Virus record (IMG/VR): IMGVR_UViG_3300025168_000568
Location: 1 to 26,318 of that record
Length of the DNA: 26,318 bases
Reading direction: 5' to 3' (one strand)
DNA from: a virus
Part shown: positions 1 through 21,793 of the stretch, in pieces
Layout: every line of letters begins with the position of its first letter
How positions within the stretch are numbered: the first letter of the stretch is position 1
Program-made: the position numbers and the translations under genes
The notes under the pieces: model-generated
What the model was told of the DNA's origin: nothing
The model's input: only the letters and a program-made list of their open reading frames with translations
The model's database searches: none

Positions 1-3000
1 ATTTACCTTGATCAATATACTCGATTTCTTTCAACTCTAACTCAGTCATCTCTCTTTCTTTAGCGCCTTCTAAGCCTTTTTTAACAACTTCCCCTGTTAG
101 TTCTGACTTAGCGTCATATCTTGATGCTACTTCAAATAAACGTCCACCTACAATTTTCTTTTCAGCAGCCGATAAATTAGATTTTTCTAACGCTTCAGCT
201 ATTATAATTGGACTAATTACTTTTGAATCTAATAAGAACTTTTCTATATTGTTGATTTCATTTGAGAATTTAACCTGAGCCTCACTAGTATTTAAAATAG
301 AAGCCATAGCTTCATTCTTACCAGATCTAATTTGGTTCATGACAGTTTGAACACCAACTTTTTTACCTAGTTCATGATCACCATTTTTAACTTTATTGAC
401 AATTTCTTGTCTTATCTCTTGGTTCGTGATAGTACGTAGTATCTGCCCTTCTAGCAAACCCATTTTTCTAATTGCAGCTCTTATTTCTAGAACTTCCGCT
501 GGTGACTTGCCTTTAACATCTAAGCCAGATAAATCTAAAGTTCCATCTTCATTACGTTTTATTCTATACTCAGCTAAAAACTTTGCTTCTTTAACAGTTT
601 TTAATTCTCTAAGGGTGTTACCAACACCTTCTACGTTACCCTGCTCTATATTTATTCTTTTAGATTCTGCAACACTTTTGTAATGAGATTCTAATAACAC
701 TGTTTCAACAATACCTGCTTCACCTGTTATTGTGTTAAGGTTTTTAGGAAGTATTTCCAATATTTCAACCCACTTTTCTGCTATGTATTTTGCTTTTTCT
801 ATTTTGTTTTTACCAAATAAATCTTTACCACTACCTTTAGGAGCTAAGTTAGTTAGGTTATTATAAGTTAAATCTCCAGTCAGAATCTCCTTACCATCAA
901 CCATAACACCCTTACTAGTTACGTTGCTTCTAATGTCGGTTAGTATACCTTCCATTGCAGGGTTTTTATCTAACTTCAGTAAATCCTTAGCGAGTTTACC
1001 TTCACCAATAGAATAGTTTTCACCTTTAACATACGACGCTCCACCTTCCGGCGTGTTTAAATCCGACATGTTTTCTAAAACCTCAGTACCAGTAAAGGTA
1101 ATATCTTCTTTACCACCACCTAAACGAGATTCTTTCATCGCGACATCCACGACATTACCATACCTCAATGGTTTAGCTCGTTCTGACAAAGGAACATCAA
1201 ATTTATAACCCTTACCATATAAAGTATTTCTTAAGTAAATACCAAAGTTATCGTTTTTAGCAGGATCATAACTTCTATATATTTTAGAAACCTCTAACCT
1301 TACCGCACTCATGTATGCGTCTCTACTAATTTCACCACCAGCTTCAAAAGAATCTCTAACAAATTCATTTACAACTCTTTCGTTGTTTTTATAAAGTTCG
1401 TTACCAGCTCTTTGAAACACCTGATCTTTGCCCGCTGGCAATTTGTTTTCTAAAATCTCTTGCTTTAACTTTTCTATCTCAGCTGATCCATTTGGGAATT
1501 TTTTTTCTAGCTCAGCTAGTTTTTGCTTTTTTAAATACGTAACGCCACCAGGTTCTAGTTGAGCTTGTTTTTCTGCAGCTAACTCTTTATATGGACCTAT
1601 GAACGTTTCGTTAGTCTTATTGTTATCAATGTTACCTTTGTTTGTTGCTATCTGCTCATTTATACCACCTTTTCTCGTAAGTTTAATAGAGTTTTCTTTC
1701 ATTAAATCCGCATAACCTTCTGGTTTTTCAGTAGCTAATCTTTTGTTCTCTGTTATTATGTTTTCTTTTTGAGTTTCTAAAGTTAACTTTTCTTGGTTTA
1801 AATCTTTAGAGGCTTTAGTGGTACTATCAACATTCTTGTTGTTTTCAACTATCGTTTCAAGTCTAAAATAATCAGCATTAACAAGGTCACTTATTTTTTT
1901 GTTTGATGGTTTCCTCGCAAAATCAGCTAATAAATCAATATTATCCTGAGCTGTTTTTAGTTTAGGAGAATGACCGTATTCACCAAGCATATCTGTTAAG
2001 TAATTTCTTATTCCCACAAACATCTTAGGCGCTTTATAATTATCGTACGCCTGTTTGTTAGAAAGTATTTCAACAGTATAAGCCATAAACTCTTCTAACG
2101 TTACGTTTTCCTTGTAAACACCCTCTATAGCCTTAGCTAATGGAGTACCATCTGCAACTTGTAATTCAGGTAGAATTTCTGAAATATCACTTTTCATTTT
2201 TTCTAAAAACACCTGTTTAGCCTTTGGTCTATGTTTAAAGTGAGCAGCCAATAAAGCGTGAGTTATCTCGTGGTTAAACTTTTCGTTACCAACTTTAAAT
2301 GAACTTTTCCTTACTAATATAGTGTTTGTTACAGGATCATACTGCGCTATGTTTTTAGAATTAGCGTAGTCAGCAGGGTTTTCACTAAACTTAACTTCAA
2401 TGTTTTTAAAATCTTTACCAAACTCTTGTCTTAAAGATTCATTAATTGGGTCAAGTTTTATTCTTTTAAGATTCTTTTCAAAATTAGGATTTGTAACGTT
2501 TAACTCATGGTGCATTACATCAACCATGTATGATTTATGTAATAAGTTTTTGTAATCTAAGTTTTGCTCAAATTTTTTAAGTTCTTTCCCTTTTAAATAT
2601 TTTTCAGGATTATTTAGCATTTCCGGAGTGATTGACAGTGGTACTTCTGAAGTTGATCCTATTGCTTTTCTAAGAGCATTTATATTTTGCCTCTCCAACT
2701 CTTCGCCTAAATTCTTTTTTGATCTAGTAGTTTTAAGATCCACTCCTTTAACGTGAGAAAAACCAGTGATACCAAAGACTATCATGTCTACTAGCATTTT
2801 CTTCCTCCAATCATCGTCGTCTGGACCATCTATGCTACCATACATGTCATTAAACTGTGTAGCAAAATCCTCATCGTTCATAAAACTGTTATATGCTTCT
2901 TCAGCGATATGAGCCATTTGAGCAGAAGAACCACCTACAACACCACCTTTAACAACTTTGTGCCATAGAGGGTTTAAAAACGCAAACTTATTATTAAAAG

Positions 3001-5398
3001 GCGATATGTTAGAAGTTAACTGACCAATAGTGTAAAAAGTAGCACCACCACCAACAGGCATGTCAAAAGCAATCTGCATCTTAGCCTCTTCAAGTGCTAA
3101 GTTAAAACCTTGATACGTTAATTTTTGAAACTTATTACCTGTTCTAAACATTTGGTAAACTCTACCTATTTGACCATAACCTAAAACACCACCTGTAGCA
3201 ATGTTAATACCAGCCATTTCAATCAACATAGGTGTAAACATACCAACGCCTTCACCTATTTCTTCTGAAAAAGTTCTAGTTAAAGCTTCTATTTGGTCGT
3301 CAGTTAAGTTTATCATTTCAAATTTAGCACCAGTAATCGGGTCTACTCCACCAGCAAACTCAGCATTGTAATTTGCCACTGTACTTTGTATATGATCTTT
3401 TAGTGCCCTGTCTCCAAGATCACCAGAAAACATTTTTTCAGAATCAAGTGCCCTTTGTTGTAACCAGTCACTCATAATAGACTGTTTAGCCGCTCTAAAG
3501 AAAGAAGCTATACCACCTTCTTTATCCATGTACTTAGGATTTGTGTTTACATATATAAGTTCATATAATGCTCTTCGTTCTCCTTCGTTGTTATCTATAG
3601 TAAGTTCGTACTGCGTTAGTAAATCTAAGTCTTTATCGCTTATAACCCCTTTCATTAAATCAAAAACGCCAGTAAAATCTTTTGCATCTAATCCAGCTTC
3701 AAATATATCTGAAACAGATATTTCTATTGACTTACCATCTTTTGAGTAGTTGTCTTTAATAAAACCAGATCCATCTGTAAACGCTTTTATTAAATCATAA
3801 TACTCTGATTTTTGATAATCACTTAGCTTTAAATTATTAATATCGTTAAACTTCTCTCTGTCTAGTTTTATTATTAACTCATCACCTTCTTTTTTTAGCT
3901 CTTGATTTCTAACTGTTTTTGTTTCGTAATACTTTGTTAAAGCATCTCTTGGTGATAAATTAGGGTATGCGGTTGTAATTGCATCTAAACTAAAGTCAAT
4001 AGAGTTTAAAGCATTTCTACCAGCTTTTACAGCGTTTTCAGCCCTATAGTCAGTCATACCTGTTTCTGGATCAAAGAAAAAGTTTTTTAAACTTTCATCA
4101 ATCAAAGATGTCTCTTGACCTAGCATAACTTTTCCTACGGCATTAGACTCTATACTTTTTAATATTTTATCAATCTGCAATTGTGCACTATCTTTAGCTG
4201 TGGTATCACCACTATTAATAGCGCTTTTACGAGCTTTGTACTGTTCAAACAATTGATCGTTTAACAGCTTTTTGTTTCGCTTTTGCTCGCTCATCGAGTT
4301 AAAAATAACATTGTTTTGCTCGTTTATAAATCTAGTGTTTAATTCAACTGAACTTAGCGATTTTCTATTGTTAACTGTTTGTTGTTTTACAGCTAGCTTC
4401 TGCAATGTCTTTGTAAAAAGTCCTTTTTTATCACCACCAATAATCTTAGAAAACTCTTTATAAGATATATTGAGTTTACCAGTAGGATCTTGGGCTCTAA
4501 ATTTAATTGCAGCTTGTTCGTATATAGCTCTTTTAACTTCTTCTTTAGTTTGTTCGGGTACGTTTTGTAAATTAAAAGAGTTGTATTGACTTTCTAAACC
4601 AGGATAGTTTATATTTAAACCATCTTCTGACACCGACGTAAAAGCGGCGTTAGTTTCGTCTTCTATAAGTTTTGTTAATGAAAGAACTTGATCTTTTGTA
4701 GCAGAATACGTAACGGGCTCTTCACCGGAGTTAATATCATAATCTTGTTGTATATCTATATCATATAAACCTTTTCTAGGACCTTCTGTATTAGCTATCA
4801 AGGTGCCAGATGTTTTACTATATATATCAGCCTCTTCTTGATCGACCTCTGTATTTATAAAGTCCATAAAAGCGCCGTACGCTGCTTCAGGGCTTTCAAC
4901 AGGGTATGTAAAACCTAAGTTACCCTCTATGTTTTCCTGCGAGTACAAAGGTATACTTGTTTCAACCCCATTTGACAAAGTAATATTCACTTCGTCTCGC
5001 GCTAAGCCAGATGGCGTTGCTGTTACGTTTAACCCTGATTTGTTTATTAAATCTGAAACTTGAGTTTCAACATCCTCTCCTTTATCATTTCTTTCGTATA
5101 AACTAAAGGCTTCTAAAGAAATCTTAGGAGCCTCATAATCATCTATAGGTAAATCCAAAAAACCACTGTCCGATGTTAATACCGTATCTTCTAATACAGT
5201 TTGAGGCCCTGCAGTCACATCGGGTGTCTGAGAGCCTTTTGTCTTTTCCACATCACTTACCACTGAAGATTGAGCTTGATGAGTTTTAACAACGCTATCA
5301 AAGTCAGCGTCATTATAAATTTCTGGTCGCCCTGCGTTTATTGCATCGGCATTCTCTTGTTTCATGCCTTCAATAATTGCTTTTAACTTTTCTTCCAT
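1..5398 (-). CDS. Giant multidomain virion-associated protein with zincin-like HExxH motif (3' end outside window)
   Basis: The ATG at 5398 (MEEKLKAIIEGMKQENADAI) opens a frame that I read through to base 1 without a stop: at least 1799 codons, with the C-terminus off the window. The N-terminal about 700 residues are charged and helical. From about 710 to 835 there are Gly-rich hydrophobic segments (GEGVGMFTPMLIEMAGINIA, TGGVLGYGQIGR, MPVGGGATFYTIG, KVVKGGVVGGSSAQMAH), suggestive of a membrane-active region. At 1038-1060 NEKFNHEITHALLAAH contains HEITH (1043-1047), and LEEFMAYTVE (E1102/E1103) could supply the third zinc ligand. Coiled segments follow (about 1193-1325). Residues 1376-1391 (SYDPAKNDNFGIYLRN) recall sigma region 2. 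It is the last of three probable ejected proteins. The alternative is a non-packaged polyvalent accessory protein. Confidence 0.72.
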   Translation of the reverse strand, partial: MEEKLKAIIEGMKQENADAINAGRPEIYNDADFDSVVKTHQAQSSVVSDVEKTKGSQTPDVTAGPQTVLEDTVLTSDSGFLDLPIDDYEAPKISLEAFSLYERNDKGEDVETQVSDLINKSGLNVTATPSGLARDEVNITLSNGVETSIPLYSQENIEGNLGFTYPVESPEAAYGAFMDFINTEVDQEEADIYSKTSGTLIANTEGPRKGLYDIDIQQDYDINSGEEPVTYSATKDQVLSLTKLIEDETNAAFTSVSEDGLNINYPGLESQYNSFNLQNVPEQTKEEVKRAIYEQAAIKFRAQDPTGKLNISYKEFSKIIGGDKKGLFTKTLQKLAVKQQTVNNRKSLSSVELNTRFINEQNNVIFNSMSEQKRNKKLLNDQLFEQYKARKSAINSGDTTAKDSAQLQIDKILKSIESNAVGKVMLGQETSLIDESLKNFFFDPETGMTDYRAENAVKAGRNALNSIDFSLDAITTAYPNLSPRDALTKYYETKTVRNQELKKEGDELIIKLDREKFNDINNLKLSDYQKSEYYDLIKAFTDGSGFIKDNYSKDGKSIEISVSDIFEAGLDAKDFTGVFDLMKGVISDKDLDLLTQYELTIDNNEGERRALYELIYVNTNPKYMDKEGGIASFFRAAKQSIMSDWLQQRALDSEKMFSGDLGDRALKDHIQSTVANYNAEFAGGVDPITGAKFEMINLTDDQIEALTRTFSEEIGEGVGMFTPMLIEMAGINIATGGVLGYGQIGRVYQMFRTGNKFQKLTYQGFNLALEEAKMQIAFDMPVGGGATFYTIGQLTSNISPFNNKFAFLNPLWHKVVKGGVVGGSSAQMAHIAEEAYNSFMNDEDFATQFNDMYGSIDGPDDDDWRKKMLVDMIVFGITGFSHVKGVDLKTTRSKKNLGEELERQNINALRKAIGSTSEVPLSITPEMLNNPEKYLKGKELKKFEQNLDYKNLLHKSYMVDVMHHELNVTNPNFEKNLKRIKLDPINESLRQEFGKDFKNIEVKFSENPADYANSKNIAQYDPVTNTILVRKSSFKVGNEKFNHEITHALLAAHFKHRPKAKQVFLEKMKSDISEILPELQVADGTPLAKAIEGVYKENVTLEEFMAYTVEILSNKQAYDNYKAPKMFVGIRNYLTDMLGEYGHSPKLKTAQDNIDLLADFARKPSNKKISDLVNADYFRLETIVENNKNVDSTTKASKDLNQEKLTLETQKENIITENKRLATEKPEGYADLMKENSIKLTRKGGINEQIATNKGNIDNNKTNETFIGPYKELAAEKQAQLEPGGVTYLKKQKLAELEKKFPNGSAEIEKLKQEILENKLPAGKDQVFQRAGNELYKNNERVVNEFVRDSFEAGGEISRDAYMSAVRLEVSKIYRSYDPAKNDNFGIYLRNTLYGKGYKFDVPLSERAKPLRYGNVVDVAMKESRLGGGKEDITFTGTEVLENMSDLNTPEGGASYVKGENYSIGEGKLAKDLLKLDKNPAMEGILTDIRSNVTSKGVMVDGKEILTGDLTYNNLTNLAPKGSGKDLFGKNKIEKAKYIAEKWVEILEILPKNLNTITGEAGIVETVLLESHYKSVAESKRINIEQGNVEGVGNTLRELKTVKEAKFLAEYRIKRNEDGTLDLSGLDVKGKSPAEVLEIRAAIRKMGLLEGQILRTITNQEIRQEIVNKVKNGDHELGKKVGVQTVMNQIRSGKNEAMASILNTSEAQVKFSNEINNIEKFLLDSKVISPIIIAEALEKSNLSAAEKKIVGGRLFEVASRYDAKSELTGEVVKKGLEGAKEREMTELELKEIEYIDQGK

Positions 5399-5400
5399 AT

Positions 5401-7275
5401 TTAACTAAATTTTTTAATTATTTGTTCGGCTGTTAGCTTAGAATTACTATTTGCTTTTGAGTGTAGTCTGTGTTGTGCTCTTAACTTTTGTAAAGCATAA
5501 TTTTTTACTAAAGGCGCTAAATCGTTTTTGCTATAATTAGGACTATCAATATGTGCAAAATCAGTGTTTGCCTTTGGATACTGCTCCGCAAAGTCATTTA
5601 AAAACTGATATAAAGGACTTTCTTCATCATGTATTGAAGATAATATATCTTGTTCTGTTTTAATAGCGTTATTTATTAAAACCATAGAGCCTTCTTCATC
5701 AAAAGGAACTCCAGCCTCAGCACTGTTTTTCATGTGAGTTAATCCTTTAGCCACAGCGTCAAAAGATTGAAAAGCTTTAGGAAACACATCTTGTTTTAAA
5801 GAAGTTAAATTATAAGTTCCTTTAGTATCTCGAAACTTAATAGCTAGTTCGTTATTATTATCAACAATCATTGTTGTCAATGGTTTTCCTTGCTCATCAG
5901 TTTTTTTAGTAATAAGAACATCTCTTAAGTATCTACTAGCAACAGAAGAACCATTAGATTCAGTTTCTTCAGATATAGAATTAATTTCTTCTTCTATATA
6001 AGGTCCAATTTTATTTAAATTAGTAGCAAGTAATTTAGCGTTGTTTATAATGTTAAGACCTGCTTTTTCTCCTCCTTTCTCTTGTAGCACTCTGTTTAAC
6101 TCTTCTTTTTGCTGTTCCATAAATTCTTGAATAGCGTCAGTAGCCGAAGCCCCTAAGAGTTGTGGTGGTAGCTCATCTCCTATAAACTGAACAGTATCAA
6201 TCCAGTTTTTTATATCTGCACTTCCTTCTCTTTGCATTAAATCAAAAGCGTCACCTTCAATCACAACCTCTGGTAGCTCTGCGCTTGGCATCTTTTCTTG
6301 CTTTGAAGAGTTGTTTATTTCTTCTGCTTCAGTAGCGTTTCCATTAAATTCTTCTAGTTGATACATTGGAGTATCAGAAGGTAATCTTTCTTTATATGAA
6401 TAAGGACTATTTCCTTTTATATTTGCTCTTTTTGATTTTAATTTTAAAACAGACTCTCTAGCTGTGGCTGGTGTTCTTGAATAAAAATCACCATACCTAA
6501 CATTAACTTTATCTCCTCCGCCTCTACCGCCTTGATTGATTAAATCGTTATCTTTAATCATTTGTTGAGCTTCGTCATTTGTCATTATCTTAACCGTACC
6601 ATCAGGTTTTTTTACTCTAACCATATTCTGAATACGCTCTCCTGCTTTATTACTTTGTATTGTCTGTAAAGTGTCTTTATATTCGTCACTTTCTGGATCA
6701 AAGTTATCGCTTTTTTCTAATTTTCGTTTTTTTCTGTTTGCCTCATTAAAACGCCCTTTCATTTCTTTTTGAGTATCTTCATCGTATTGTTTTTTCTTTT
6801 TTCTTCCAAACAATCCAAAGGCGTTTGCTAACTTTCTTTTTTCTTTTGCAACTTGAATCTCATATTTTTTAACTTCTTCTTTATTACCTTCTTTTTTTGC
6901 TTTCTCTAATTTTGCTTCAGTAGCTTGTATTGGTTTTAAATCGTCTTCGTTATAACCTGGTTGCATTTGATCTTCTAAACCTATCATGTCTATTTTAGAT
7001 GCAGTCAATTTTTTTTCACCGTTGTAATAGTTATTAGTAATAGTATCACCAGTACTTTTCTCTTTGTTTTCTTCTTCTTTGTTTCCTAAATATTGTTTTT
7101 CAAAAGCCGCCATTATAGGTCTGGTCATTAAATCACCTCTCCAATCACCGCCAGAAAGAGATGATTCTCCTCCTAGTTGGTAGTTTGATCCAGCCGCACC
7201 ACGGACTAAAGTTTGATTTATTCCTAATGGGCTTTTAATAGCTTTTTTCTTATTTTTTTTAGATTTTTTTGCCAT
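5401..7275 (-). CDS. Basic, low-complexity protein, probable packaged (cargo/ejection) protein
   Basis: I do not recognise a named family for this 624-residue protein. It starts with a very basic tail, MAKKSKKNKKKAIKSPLGIN, which could bind DNA or act as a packaging tag. A charged, mostly helical region follows (about 65-220) with clusters such as GRKKKKQ (157-163) and RKKRKLEK. A Gly/Arg linker (NQGGRGGGDK, about 247-256) and a Glu/Asn-rich spacer come next. From about residue 334 (LPEVVIEGD) the C-terminal half is helical (ELNRVLQEKGGEKAGLNIIN, FPKAFQSFDAVAKGLTHMKN), with no catalytic motif or membrane segment. It lies between the ejection-like protein and the giant protein, with only 2 bases before the latter. 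Together they look like an internal-protein cluster. Confidence 0.5.
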   Translation of the reverse strand: MAKKSKKNKKKAIKSPLGINQTLVRGAAGSNYQLGGESSLSGGDWRGDLMTRPIMAAFEKQYLGNKEEENKEKSTGDTITNNYYNGEKKLTASKIDMIGLEDQMQPGYNEDDLKPIQATEAKLEKAKKEGNKEEVKKYEIQVAKEKRKLANAFGLFGRKKKKQYDEDTQKEMKGRFNEANRKKRKLEKSDNFDPESDEYKDTLQTIQSNKAGERIQNMVRVKKPDGTVKIMTNDEAQQMIKDNDLINQGGRGGGDKVNVRYGDFYSRTPATARESVLKLKSKRANIKGNSPYSYKERLPSDTPMYQLEEFNGNATEAEEINNSSKQEKMPSAELPEVVIEGDAFDLMQREGSADIKNWIDTVQFIGDELPPQLLGASATDAIQEFMEQQKEELNRVLQEKGGEKAGLNIINNAKLLATNLNKIGPYIEEEINSISEETESNGSSVASRYLRDVLITKKTDEQGKPLTTMIVDNNNELAIKFRDTKGTYNLTSLKQDVFPKAFQSFDAVAKGLTHMKNSAEAGVPFDEEGSMVLINNAIKTEQDILSSIHDEESPLYQFLNDFAEQYPKANTDFAHIDSPNYSKNDLAPLVKNYALQKLRAQHRLHSKANSNSKLTAEQIIKKFS

Positions 7276-7304: not shown

Positions 7305-7949
7305 TTATACTTTTGGTTTTGGGGCTCCCGAGCCTAGGCCCGCCGCGCCTCCTTGACCAAGCACTCCTATTGCAACAGATCCTATATCACCAATACCAGA
7401 CATAACTTGATCTCTAGCTCTTTGCCTAGCTGCGTCGGCAGCTGCTTTTCTTTGTTGCGCCATACCCATTAAAGTTTCTGTTTTATCTTTTCTTAAATCT
7501 TGACTTCTAGCTTCACCACTTGCTTCTTGCATGTTTAATTTAGATTGCTCTTGCGCCGATAATCTAGTGTTTTGAGCTTCTTGCATACCAATAGTTGCTG
7601 AAGCTTGTTGGGCTTGTTGAGCACCTTGATTAGCCATAGCTTGTGCTAATCCAGCAATACCAGATCCACCAGCAGCTCCTTGCATGTTTTGCATGATGTT
7701 TGCTTGGTTTTGTTTGTTTTGGCTTGCTTGAAACTCTGCTTGCTGAGTATTAACCGTTAGATCTTCCATAGTGTTCTCCATGTCAGCATAAGGATTACTA
7801 GTGTCCATAGCTTCGTAATCAGCTTTTCTTTGTTTTAATTCAGCTGCTGCTTTTCTTTGCTCTCTTTTTCTTTTGCTACTACCCGACAAGGCCATACCTA
7901 TTTTAGAAACAGCTGCGGCTCCAGCTATACTTACTGCTATCCAACTCAT
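7305..7949 (-). CDS. Internal virion / DNA-ejection-like protein (T7 gp14-like)
   Basis: This protein has 214 residues. The N-terminus is a hydrophobic Ala/Gly helix (SWIAVSIAGAAAVSKIGMAL, 2-21) directly followed by a basic patch (SSKRKREQRK). Next come the motif MDTSNPYADMENTMEDLTVN (48-67) and a long Ala/Gln/Met-rich helical region. A Gly-rich hinge, GAAGGSGIAGLAQAMANQGA (91-110), interrupts it. The C-terminus is Gly/Ala-rich with a second hydrophobic stretch (DIGSVAIGVLGQGGAAGLG). This composition and these paired weakly hydrophobic ends are typical of podovirus internal core proteins ejected with the DNA to breach the cell envelope. No signal peptide cleavage is expected. It starts 1 base from the cupin stop and precedes two other likely cargo proteins. 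An alternative is a small structural or chaperone protein. Confidence 0.6.
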   Translation of the reverse strand: MSWIAVSIAGAAAVSKIGMALSGSSKRKREQRKAAAELKQRKADYEAMDTSNPYADMENTMEDLTVNTQQAEFQASQNKQNQANIMQNMQGAAGGSGIAGLAQAMANQGAQQAQQASATIGMQEAQNTRLSAQEQSKLNMQEASGEARSQDLRKDKTETLMGMAQQRKAAADAARQRARDQVMSGIGDIGSVAIGVLGQGGAAGLGSGAPKPKV

Positions 7950-7950
7950 A

Positions 7951-8553
7951 TTATTCTTGTTTTAAATTAATTTTTTTTAATGCTTCTAGAGGATCACTGC
8001 CTAGTGGTAAGTCTTCGTACTTAGTACATATAACCTCTTCTTCAACATCCTCTATAGTAATACTATCAGTAGCATGCACTGTTGTGAATACACATTCTTC
8101 ATGTGTATATATAGCTCTTTTTGTACCTGGTTTTGTTACTCCTTGATAAGGCGCTTTTATAGTTTGTATGCCTTCTTCTGTTAGTATTGACATCTCACCT
8201 TTCATTAAAAAAAAAGGATGTTCTTTTTTATGTATTTTTGTTACAATAAGTTCGTGAGCTGGGTTATATATTTCTCTTATATAACAACCACCTGCAAAAG
8301 TATGTTTAACAGGGTTTTTATTATGTGCCGCTGCTCCTGTTGTTCCTTCTACGCTAGCTATAGCTTGCTCTAACTCATTTATTTTGCTTCTAAATTCTTT
8401 TCTTTTTCTAATTTCTTCTCCAACCTCCCATGCTTCATCAAAATTAAAAGAGTGTTTTAAACCTAACATTTCTGTTACTTCTACAAATTGAGCTTTACTT
8501 TCTTCTTTTGTTAAAGGATTTTTGGCAACTTGTTCTTTTATTTTTTCGTCCAT
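7951..8553 (-). CDS. Cupin-fold phage protein in the tail block
   Basis: This protein has 200 residues. Residues 1-70 are helical and charged (a coiled segment, IRKRKEFRSKINELEQAIAS). Residues about 85-165 look like a single cupin barrel. GGCYIREIYNPAHELIVTKI leads to H108 and H112 in KIHKKEHPFFLMKGE (E120), then SILTEEG. The second half is APYQGVTKPGTKRAIYTHEE with P142, G143 and H151, ending FTTVHAT. This follows the two cupin motifs (His/His/Glu, then PxG...His), so a bound metal is plausible, though the HxxxH spacing differs from the classical HxH. Such cupins occur in phage structural blocks, where they may be structural or carbohydrate-binding instead of enzymatic. The tail (EEEVICTKYEDLPLGSDP) is acidic. 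The ATG lies in an A/T-rich leader. Confidence 0.68.
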   Translation of the reverse strand: MDEKIKEQVAKNPLTKEESKAQFVEVTEMLGLKHSFNFDEAWEVGEEIRKRKEFRSKINELEQAIASVEGTTGAAAHNKNPVKHTFAGGCYIREIYNPAHELIVTKIHKKEHPFFLMKGEMSILTEEGIQTIKAPYQGVTKPGTKRAIYTHEECVFTTVHATDSITIEDVEEEVICTKYEDLPLGSDPLEALKKINLKQE

Positions 8554-20350: not shown

Positions 20351-21793
20351 TTAGTTCATTAACATGAAGTTATTAGCACCTTGTGTAATCAAACATCTTT
20401 CAGATAAATAGTGTATTTCCATCGTGTCTTTTCCAGAAGTAGCAGCACCAACAGAACCAGTAACCCAAGTTTTCATTTTTCTGTCATCAGTTGCAGAAGC
20501 TCTGTATCTAACATGTAAGAATGGACGCTTTAAGTTTCTACCTAACTGCTCATCATATACAGAAGATACACCAGCTGGAACAACTACCCCTCGGATGTTT
20601 GTAACAGTATCGTTAAGAGCACCTCTTGTACCTTTGTCATTTAAGTATTTAAAGTCAGATTTGTAAAAGTCATAAGAACCTCTTCTAAAACCAGAGAAAC
20701 CTAAATTTAAAGCCATATCTTCTTCATTATTGAATACTCCGTAAGAAGTACCACCAGCACCATAAGAATTCATAGAAGCTAACATGTCATCCATTGCCAG
20801 CGAAGTACCTCTGTTTACAAACATCATATTTTCTTCAATAGCACCGTTTTGATCAAACGCAGCTAAGATAGCGTCAAATTCAGCTAAATCAGTAGCGGCA
20901 TTAACGCCAGTAACACCAGTAGTTTGGTGACCTCTAGTAGTAATAGCTTGGAATAAACCTTGCGTACCATCTTGTAAAGCACCTCCATCAGTACCACCAA
21001 TTGCGCCAGCAGCTGCTAAAGCAGTTTCAGCTTCTAACATAGTCATCTCTAAGTAATCAGTAAAACGAGCTCTAGTATCACCTTCAGCTTTTAAGTACCA
21101 TAAGTAACCGTTTTGCCCTTCTTCACCAGAAACTTCAACCCAACCAATTTGAGACACATCAGATCCAGATACTTCGTAGTAATCTTTCATAATAATGTGT
21201 TTGTTAGAGTGAGAAGTAAACTTAGGAGAATTTGCAGCAGTTCTTCCATCAGTACCTTTTTCAAATTCAGAACCAACAACTAGTATTCTATAAGCACTTG
21301 CACCAGCACTATCAGCAAAACCAGCAGTGTCAAAGTTAGCAGCAGCGTAAGGTAATACAGTCACAGTTGCAGCAGCTTTAGCTGAAACATAACCTCTTAA
21401 AGTTAATGAAGCGTTTGATATTAATACTATATCACCAACTCGTATACCGTGTACATTTGCAGCACCACCATCAATAGTATTTCCATCAATATCTTCTGTA
21501 ATAGTAAATATATTAGCAGAAACATCAGCGTTAGTTGCTTTGTAAGCTAAATGTAATCTACCTTGTTCAGACCATATAACTCTATCTGACGTAGAAGCTT
21601 CTTCAGCTCCTACTTGAGATAAAAATCCTGCGATTGTTCTTTTACCATAAATCTCTGCTTCTTGAGCCATAAGATCTGGTAAGTATTGTTGCGCCCATCC
21701 TTCCGTAGCAGCAGACGTAAAGTCTATGTAGTTTGTGGATAGCGTTTGTTGTCTTGGAGCAGCGTCTATGCCGCTCGCACTTGTAATTGCCAT
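20351..21793 (-). CDS. Major capsid protein
   Basis: This 480-residue protein is the likely main shell subunit (HK97 fold expected for tailed phages). It is Ala/Gly-rich, unlike its Lys/Glu-rich neighbours, and has no signal peptide or membrane segment. Features seen include the N-terminal SQVGAEEASTSDRVIWSEQG strand region. A beta-rich insertion follows (IRVGDIVLISNASLTLRGYV, about 117-136). The central helix is ARFTDYLEMTMLEAETALAA. The C-terminus is DTMEIHYLSERCLITQGANN, an ending I associate with capsid proteins of this general group. It sits after the scaffold gene (19-base gap) and is followed 14 bases past its stop by a strong intrinsic terminator, as expected for the most highly expressed structural gene. 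The leader TAAAATAAATAATT before ATG has no Shine-Dalgarno sequence. I cannot tell which capsid family it belongs to without a search. Confidence 0.86.
   Translation of the reverse strand: MAITSASGIDAAPRQQTLSTNYIDFTSAATEGWAQQYLPDLMAQEAEIYGKRTIAGFLSQVGAEEASTSDRVIWSEQGRLHLAYKATNADVSANIFTITEDIDGNTIDGGAANVHGIRVGDIVLISNASLTLRGYVSAKAAATVTVLPYAAANFDTAGFADSAGASAYRILVVGSEFEKGTDGRTAANSPKFTSHSNKHIIMKDYYEVSGSDVSQIGWVEVSGEEGQNGYLWYLKAEGDTRARFTDYLEMTMLEAETALAAAGAIGGTDGGALQDGTQGLFQAITTRGHQTTGVTGVNAATDLAEFDAILAAFDQNGAIEENMMFVNRGTSLAMDDMLASMNSYGAGGTSYGVFNNEEDMALNLGFSGFRRGSYDFYKSDFKYLNDKGTRGALNDTVTNIRGVVVPAGVSSVYDEQLGRNLKRPFLHVRYRASATDDRKMKTWVTGSVGAATSGKDTMEIHYLSERCLITQGANNFMLMN

Follow-up and report, generated by a model that had tools for sequence, protein, structure and literature searches.

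The giant protein that closes the structural operon of the window, by which we mean the whole 26,318-nucleotide stretch of viral DNA analyzed here, most probably carries a zincin-like metallopeptidase domain at residues about 975-1171 (1886..2476, minus strand), with an intact candidate site made up of H1043, H1047, and E1103 as metal ligands and E1044 as general base. We place the probability of this reading at roughly 0.88. The identification is supported by a motif, by its conservation, by homology to a large family, and by a predicted zincin fold. The domain joins a known class, the zincins of phage polyvalent proteins, and it does so within an N4-like ejection cassette; a giant virion protein that joins a zincin to a sigma-like partner, as many relatives do and the window probably does, was not found described in the open-access papers searched.

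The window represents the structural operon of a podovirus, headed by the C-terminus of the terminase, the portal (phrog_6547, 4e-140) and the major capsid protein (MCP; 20351..21793, minus strand; phrog_13704, 7.5e-100). Beyond the MCP follow two head proteins, a 2139-aa protein together with smaller ones, a 214-aa protein rich in Ala, Gln, and Gly (7305..7949, minus strand), a 624-aa protein (5401..7275, minus strand) and lastly the giant (2..5398, minus strand), which the ORF list, its translation, and synteny define as a chain of 1799 aa with its 3' end cut by the end of the contig. A 200-aa protein at 7951-8553 (minus strand) matches PHROG short tail fiber/adhesin families (3.8e-32) and has a cupin-like look by eye. 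The order portal-MCP-...-small-medium-giant matches that of N4, in which the ejection cassette comprises gp52 (150 aa), gp51 (644 aa), and gp50 (3500 aa) (PMC12633501). By order and composition the 214-aa protein would correspond to gp52, and by position and size the 624-aa protein would correspond to gp51. Capsid and portal place the window near Flavobacterium Elemovirus, Cellulophaga phi38:1 (Pervagoviridae) and Pachyviridae, with Maribacter phage Panino and the metagenomic phage ctfjg026 as further named relatives, and the named relatives have a giant or large protein at the same operon position. Because of the gene order, and because the syntenic giants of elemoB and phi38:1 are annotated as “structural protein,” the giant would be expected to leave the head with the DNA; it is probably an N4-gp50-like internal (ejection) protein of a Bacteroidetes-type podovirus. 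The annotations of two other syntenic giants, “tRNA methyltransferase” in Panino and “reticulocyte binding/rhoptry protein” in ctfjg026, were set aside as evidence. This reading links the N4-type strategy of ejection with a group of marine phages that is widespread yet uncultured.

The first-pass annotation of this DNA had placed HEITH on the minus strand at 2272-2258, as residues 1043-1047, and the ORF translation returns exactly these coordinates. The motif (2258..2272, minus strand) supplies the two candidate metal-ligand His and the candidate catalytic Glu, and it is the single HExxH of the 1799-aa protein, a pattern present in 0.95% of 2000 shuffles of the same sequence. The downstream Glu had been sought in LEEFMAYTVE, which begins at residue 1101 and offers both E1102 (2095-2093) and E1103 (2092-2090); homologous columns single out E1103 (2090..2092, minus strand) as the conserved third-ligand candidate. 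As a lone query the giant finds no relative in Pfam, PHROGs, PDB sequences, IMG/VR, or phage records, and its failure to match the first three would suit the view that HEITH arose by chance in so long a protein. This explanation is extremely improbable given a homologous conserved domain, an invariant downstream Glu, and a fold match, and we discarded it on the grounds of conservation.

Relatives were gathered solely via the capsid protein (68-93% identity), after which the giant gene closing each operon was read. This gave 16 distinct giants chosen without regard to the motif (at this length L111 and L112 are identical, and they count as one). HExxH is present in 15 of the 16, with a chance expectation of 0-2.5% per protein, and the remaining giant (L105) has HDGIH, for which the corresponding chance is 4.75%. 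In L105 (4225-11817) the HDGIH lies at residue 1626 and the downstream Glu is kept, a possible natural active-site variant. Of these giants, the only one that can be aligned with that of the window is L108, at 30% identity over residues 311-1212. Over the domain, L108/L113 is likewise 30% identical to the window, and this nearest homologue has HEMSH and keeps the Glu. Loss of HExxH in close homologues would, according to the first-pass annotation, have refuted its reading; the motif is in fact kept in the closest one and in nearly all syntenic giants. When window positions 2-5398 are compared with L093-L112, the capsids are 68-93% identical and most giants are unalignable; by these comparisons, the operon as a whole evolves much more slowly than its giant gene. 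A 20-region alignment has both His in every row, with E1044 and E1103 each found in at least 90% of rows. Among the named phages, elemoB has HEIFH and ctfjg026 has two HEFGH motifs, at residues 1615 and 2500 of its giant (L004:741-12320). HExxH is absent from the giants of phi38:1, phi46:3, and Panino, so the domain appears dispensable in some related lineages.

A wider sample came from an eight-region profile, which recovered 186 encoded relatives from IMG/VR; the 80 retained for analysis lie in open frames mostly of 1100-3500 codons. HExxH was imposed on this set by the search pattern, whereas the position of E1103 was left free. The Glu is nevertheless invariant in 75 aligned rows and present in 97 of 98 rows of a second alignment, while most of the 75 domains are only 11-21% identical to that of the window. 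The zincin is one of the few fixed parts of an otherwise fast-changing giant protein, and therefore probably serves a need of the phage at entry.

Profile and fold evidence point the same way. When the window and L108/L113 are both withheld from training, the resulting profile still detects residues 1024-1171 at 17.8 bits, compared with 1.1 bits for the best of 200 shuffles. PHROG 87 “metallo-protease” is matched by four family members (best E 1.5e-6), and the 20-member set has weak, scattered Pfam matches, several of which are to zincin families (M78, DUF5700, DUF3267, and DUF6782); a 75-sequence profile has no match among PDB sequences. An AlphaFold2 model of residues 913-1193, built on the family alignment, has a mean pLDDT of 64.6, with values of about 75-88 in the core. 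This core consists of a helix (973-996), three strands (1001-1005, 1018-1021, and 1026-1030), a helix bearing HEITH (1039-1055) and a later helix bearing E1103 (1101-1113). The metallopeptidase (MPTase) core of polyvalent proteins is described as a helix, three strands, and two helices (PMC5512222), and the model, a prediction of moderate confidence, agrees with it. The gluzincin-type arrangement claimed in the first-pass annotation is thereby supported, at the level of a model and of 75 aligned rows: both His are on one predicted helix and the invariant E1103 is on a later one. The best Foldseek matches and most VIA-align rows are zincins, among them anthrax lethal factor, N4 vRNAP C1, PPEP-2, IrrE/PprI, SPRTN-like proteins, selecase, and ArdC, every structural Z for the zincin model being below 8. 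The top VIA-align rows include lethal factor residues 51-263, which are outside its catalytic domain, and for this reason the fold alone is no demonstration of catalysis. The catalytic domain of lethal factor is the best-ranked fold match and likewise draws its ligands from the two His of HExxH and a distant Glu. At about 10-18% identity over the match it is a structural neighbor only, and the window protein has no sign of the other parts of lethal factor or of a eukaryotic target.

A closer comparison can be made with N4. The model matches residues 2124-2363 of N4 vRNAP (9pnr) with Z 5.4 over 170 residues at 16% identity. When zincin domains from eleven Schitoviridae vRNAPs were aligned and compared with the window/L108 profile by hhalign, the match extended over 141 columns (E 2.7e-5, probability 74%), pairing HEITHA with HELVHA and EFMAY with EFMAW; larger family alignments match the N4 domains more weakly. 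These profile comparisons support kinship between the window zincin and the C1 domain of N4 gp50 (residues 2124-2375), which also carries HExxH (PMC12633501) and is likewise a zincin in a giant virion protein ending a small-medium-giant cassette. No RNA polymerase domain was detected by Pfam in the 1799 residues of the window giant, whose C-terminus is missing, and a search for the DxDxD RNA-polymerase motif gave scattered matches only, with none in the window protein. In N4 the RNA polymerase precedes the zincin, whereas in many relatives of the window a sigma-like domain follows it instead.

Zincin-like domains are the commonest domains of polyvalent proteins, N4 vRNAP included (Iyer et al., 2017; PMC5512222), and the polyvalent framing of the first-pass annotation holds. 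By operon position and by comparison with relatives, the giant combines several unrelated domains and is encoded with structural genes. It shares with the polyvalent MPTases their core fold, HExxH, and distant Glu, as well as their setting in giant multidomain phage proteins adjoining structural genes. In the relatives' giants, the zincin is accompanied by Zeta-toxin/AAA_33, DUF5763, or sigma-like domains. The group described here differs in consisting of marine Bacteroidetes-type podoviruses and in having, in many of its members, a sigma-like partner that is absent from the main text of the survey. The giants of Elemovirus and ctfjg026 occupy the same operon position and have HEIFH or HEFGH in a protein of 3700-3860 aa, and that of elemoB is 28% identical to the window giant over 130 aa around the motif; the rest of their sequence is unalignable with that of the window giant, and they have no sigma-like match.

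What the peptidase might act on can be discussed in the light of precedents compatible with self-processing, with cleavage of a host protein, or with a structural role. We tentatively favor, at somewhat less than even odds, a zincin working in cis or inside the ejected assembly. The giant chain would be cut during or after passage into the cell, and cutting would free other domains (sigma-like and kinase-like in relatives) in the cytoplasm. This mode of action is favored because nearly every member of the capsid-defined group has the domain, as one would expect if it belonged to the entry machinery. The P1 protein DdrB, whose MPTase domain is C-terminal, undergoes processing ahead of packaging, whereas N4 vRNAP is packaged uncut (PMC5512222). 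As N4 vRNAP has the same domain as the window giant, its packaging argues against obligatory processing in the head. It is also conceivable, with rather lower probability, that the zincin is an injected effector which cleaves a host protein involved in defense, transcription, or the envelope soon after entry. Such a role is named as one possibility in the polyvalent-protein survey (PMC5512222) and would fit a protein in an ejection-type cassette whose site is retained while the remainder of the giant diverges. Other effector-like domains are borne by the group's giants, for example the Zeta-toxin/AAA_33 kinase of L095, although a domain that is near-universal rather than patchy in the capsid-defined group is less typical of an arms-race effector. 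This kinase-like region (Pfam 5.7e-9 and 5.8e-10) lies at residues 2461-2593 of L095:2395-14568, in the same giant as the zincin.

N4 also provides the grounds for an unlikely third account, in which the zincin fold is structural and contributes to packaging or to the regulation of neighboring domains, with peptidase activity lost or irrelevant. The N4 vRNAP region that contains the zincin domain is required for encapsidation of a protein that is packaged unprocessed (PMC5512222), the C-terminal part of N4 vRNAP autoinhibits transcription (PMC12633501), and one relative, L105, has HDGIH in place of HExxH. Against this, diverged domains keep the two His, the Glu of HExxH, and the distant Glu almost without exception, which is hard to explain without metal chemistry; we argue for such chemistry because the four site residues are constant in domains only 11-21% identical to that of the window. 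These phages offer many natural variants for asking what the N4 vRNAP zincin does.

The partner that sets this group apart is a sigma-70 region-2-like domain, which is well supported in the relatives' giants by profile comparison and structure prediction. About 40% of the giants collected have it, 200-330 residues downstream of the zincin; with a cutoff of E 0.01, a profile search detects it in 40 of 104. The pattern [YF][DN]P...(aliphatic)..Y is found in 59 of about 98 giants that have the HExxH motif, at 150-450 residues after it, compared with 3% in shuffles, and together with its flanking sequence it resembles sigma-70 region 2. Pfam gave the domain no name, and the best 10 PDB sequence matches of a 17-member profile are all sigma factors (top E 0.002). 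In a predicted structure (pLDDT about 90, residues 41-130), sigma factor domain 2 is the only fold among the Foldseek and VIA-align matches listed, and all 50 of the 50 VIA-align matches listed are sigma factor chains or models, with Z up to 9.1. The domain was seen at L149:6430-6870, with equivalents including L099, L100, L111, L119, L129, and L134 and further loci in L140-L142, L148, L151, L168, L178, and L186. At tblastn sensitivity, no cultured phage in the collection matched the zincin and sigma-like region of L149.

In the window giant the sigma-like domain is probable, at residues about 1306-1393 (1220..1483, minus strand), with RSYDPAKNDNFGIYLRNTL at 1374-1392, and it is reached through the nearest relative. 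A single-sequence hmmsearch with the sigma-like profile found no match in the window protein, while hhalign of the window+L113 profile with the sigma-like family gave a probability of 91 (E 1.1e-6) and L113 alone scored 27.3 bits against that family. The main text of the polyvalent-protein survey (PMC5512222) makes no use of the word “sigma,” and a zincin/sigma-like virion protein fusion was not found in the open-access library searched, which is incomplete. The union of zincin and sigma-like domain suggests a vRNAP-like role at entry, and the sigma-like neighbor offers a testable proposal for how such phages could start transcription without a virion RNA polymerase of their own. A bolder and doubtful extension is that abundant marine Bacteroidetes-type podoviruses eject a zincin and sigma-like giant that would bring the host RNA polymerase onto the phage genome as it enters, while the peptidase would free or reset the sigma-like device of the giant. 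If true, this would be a functional parallel to the ejected RNA polymerase of N4.

Other regions of the giants also stand out. A domain of unknown fold at residues about 1489-1625 of the window protein (524..934, minus strand) was delimited with a window/L108 profile, which matches other giants down to 1.9e-11 with no decoy matches; it has no PDB relative by sequence. This conserved domain (ATGVPxxLLxxFYTK ... TNQAVR) follows the sigma-like one and can also be seen in L148:6760-7665. By eye, the C-terminal half of L108:4410-13169 contains a HAD-like DFDDT stretch, with Cys/His-rich repeats at the C-terminus, and Pfam places a similar C-terminal DUF5763 in L093 and L095.
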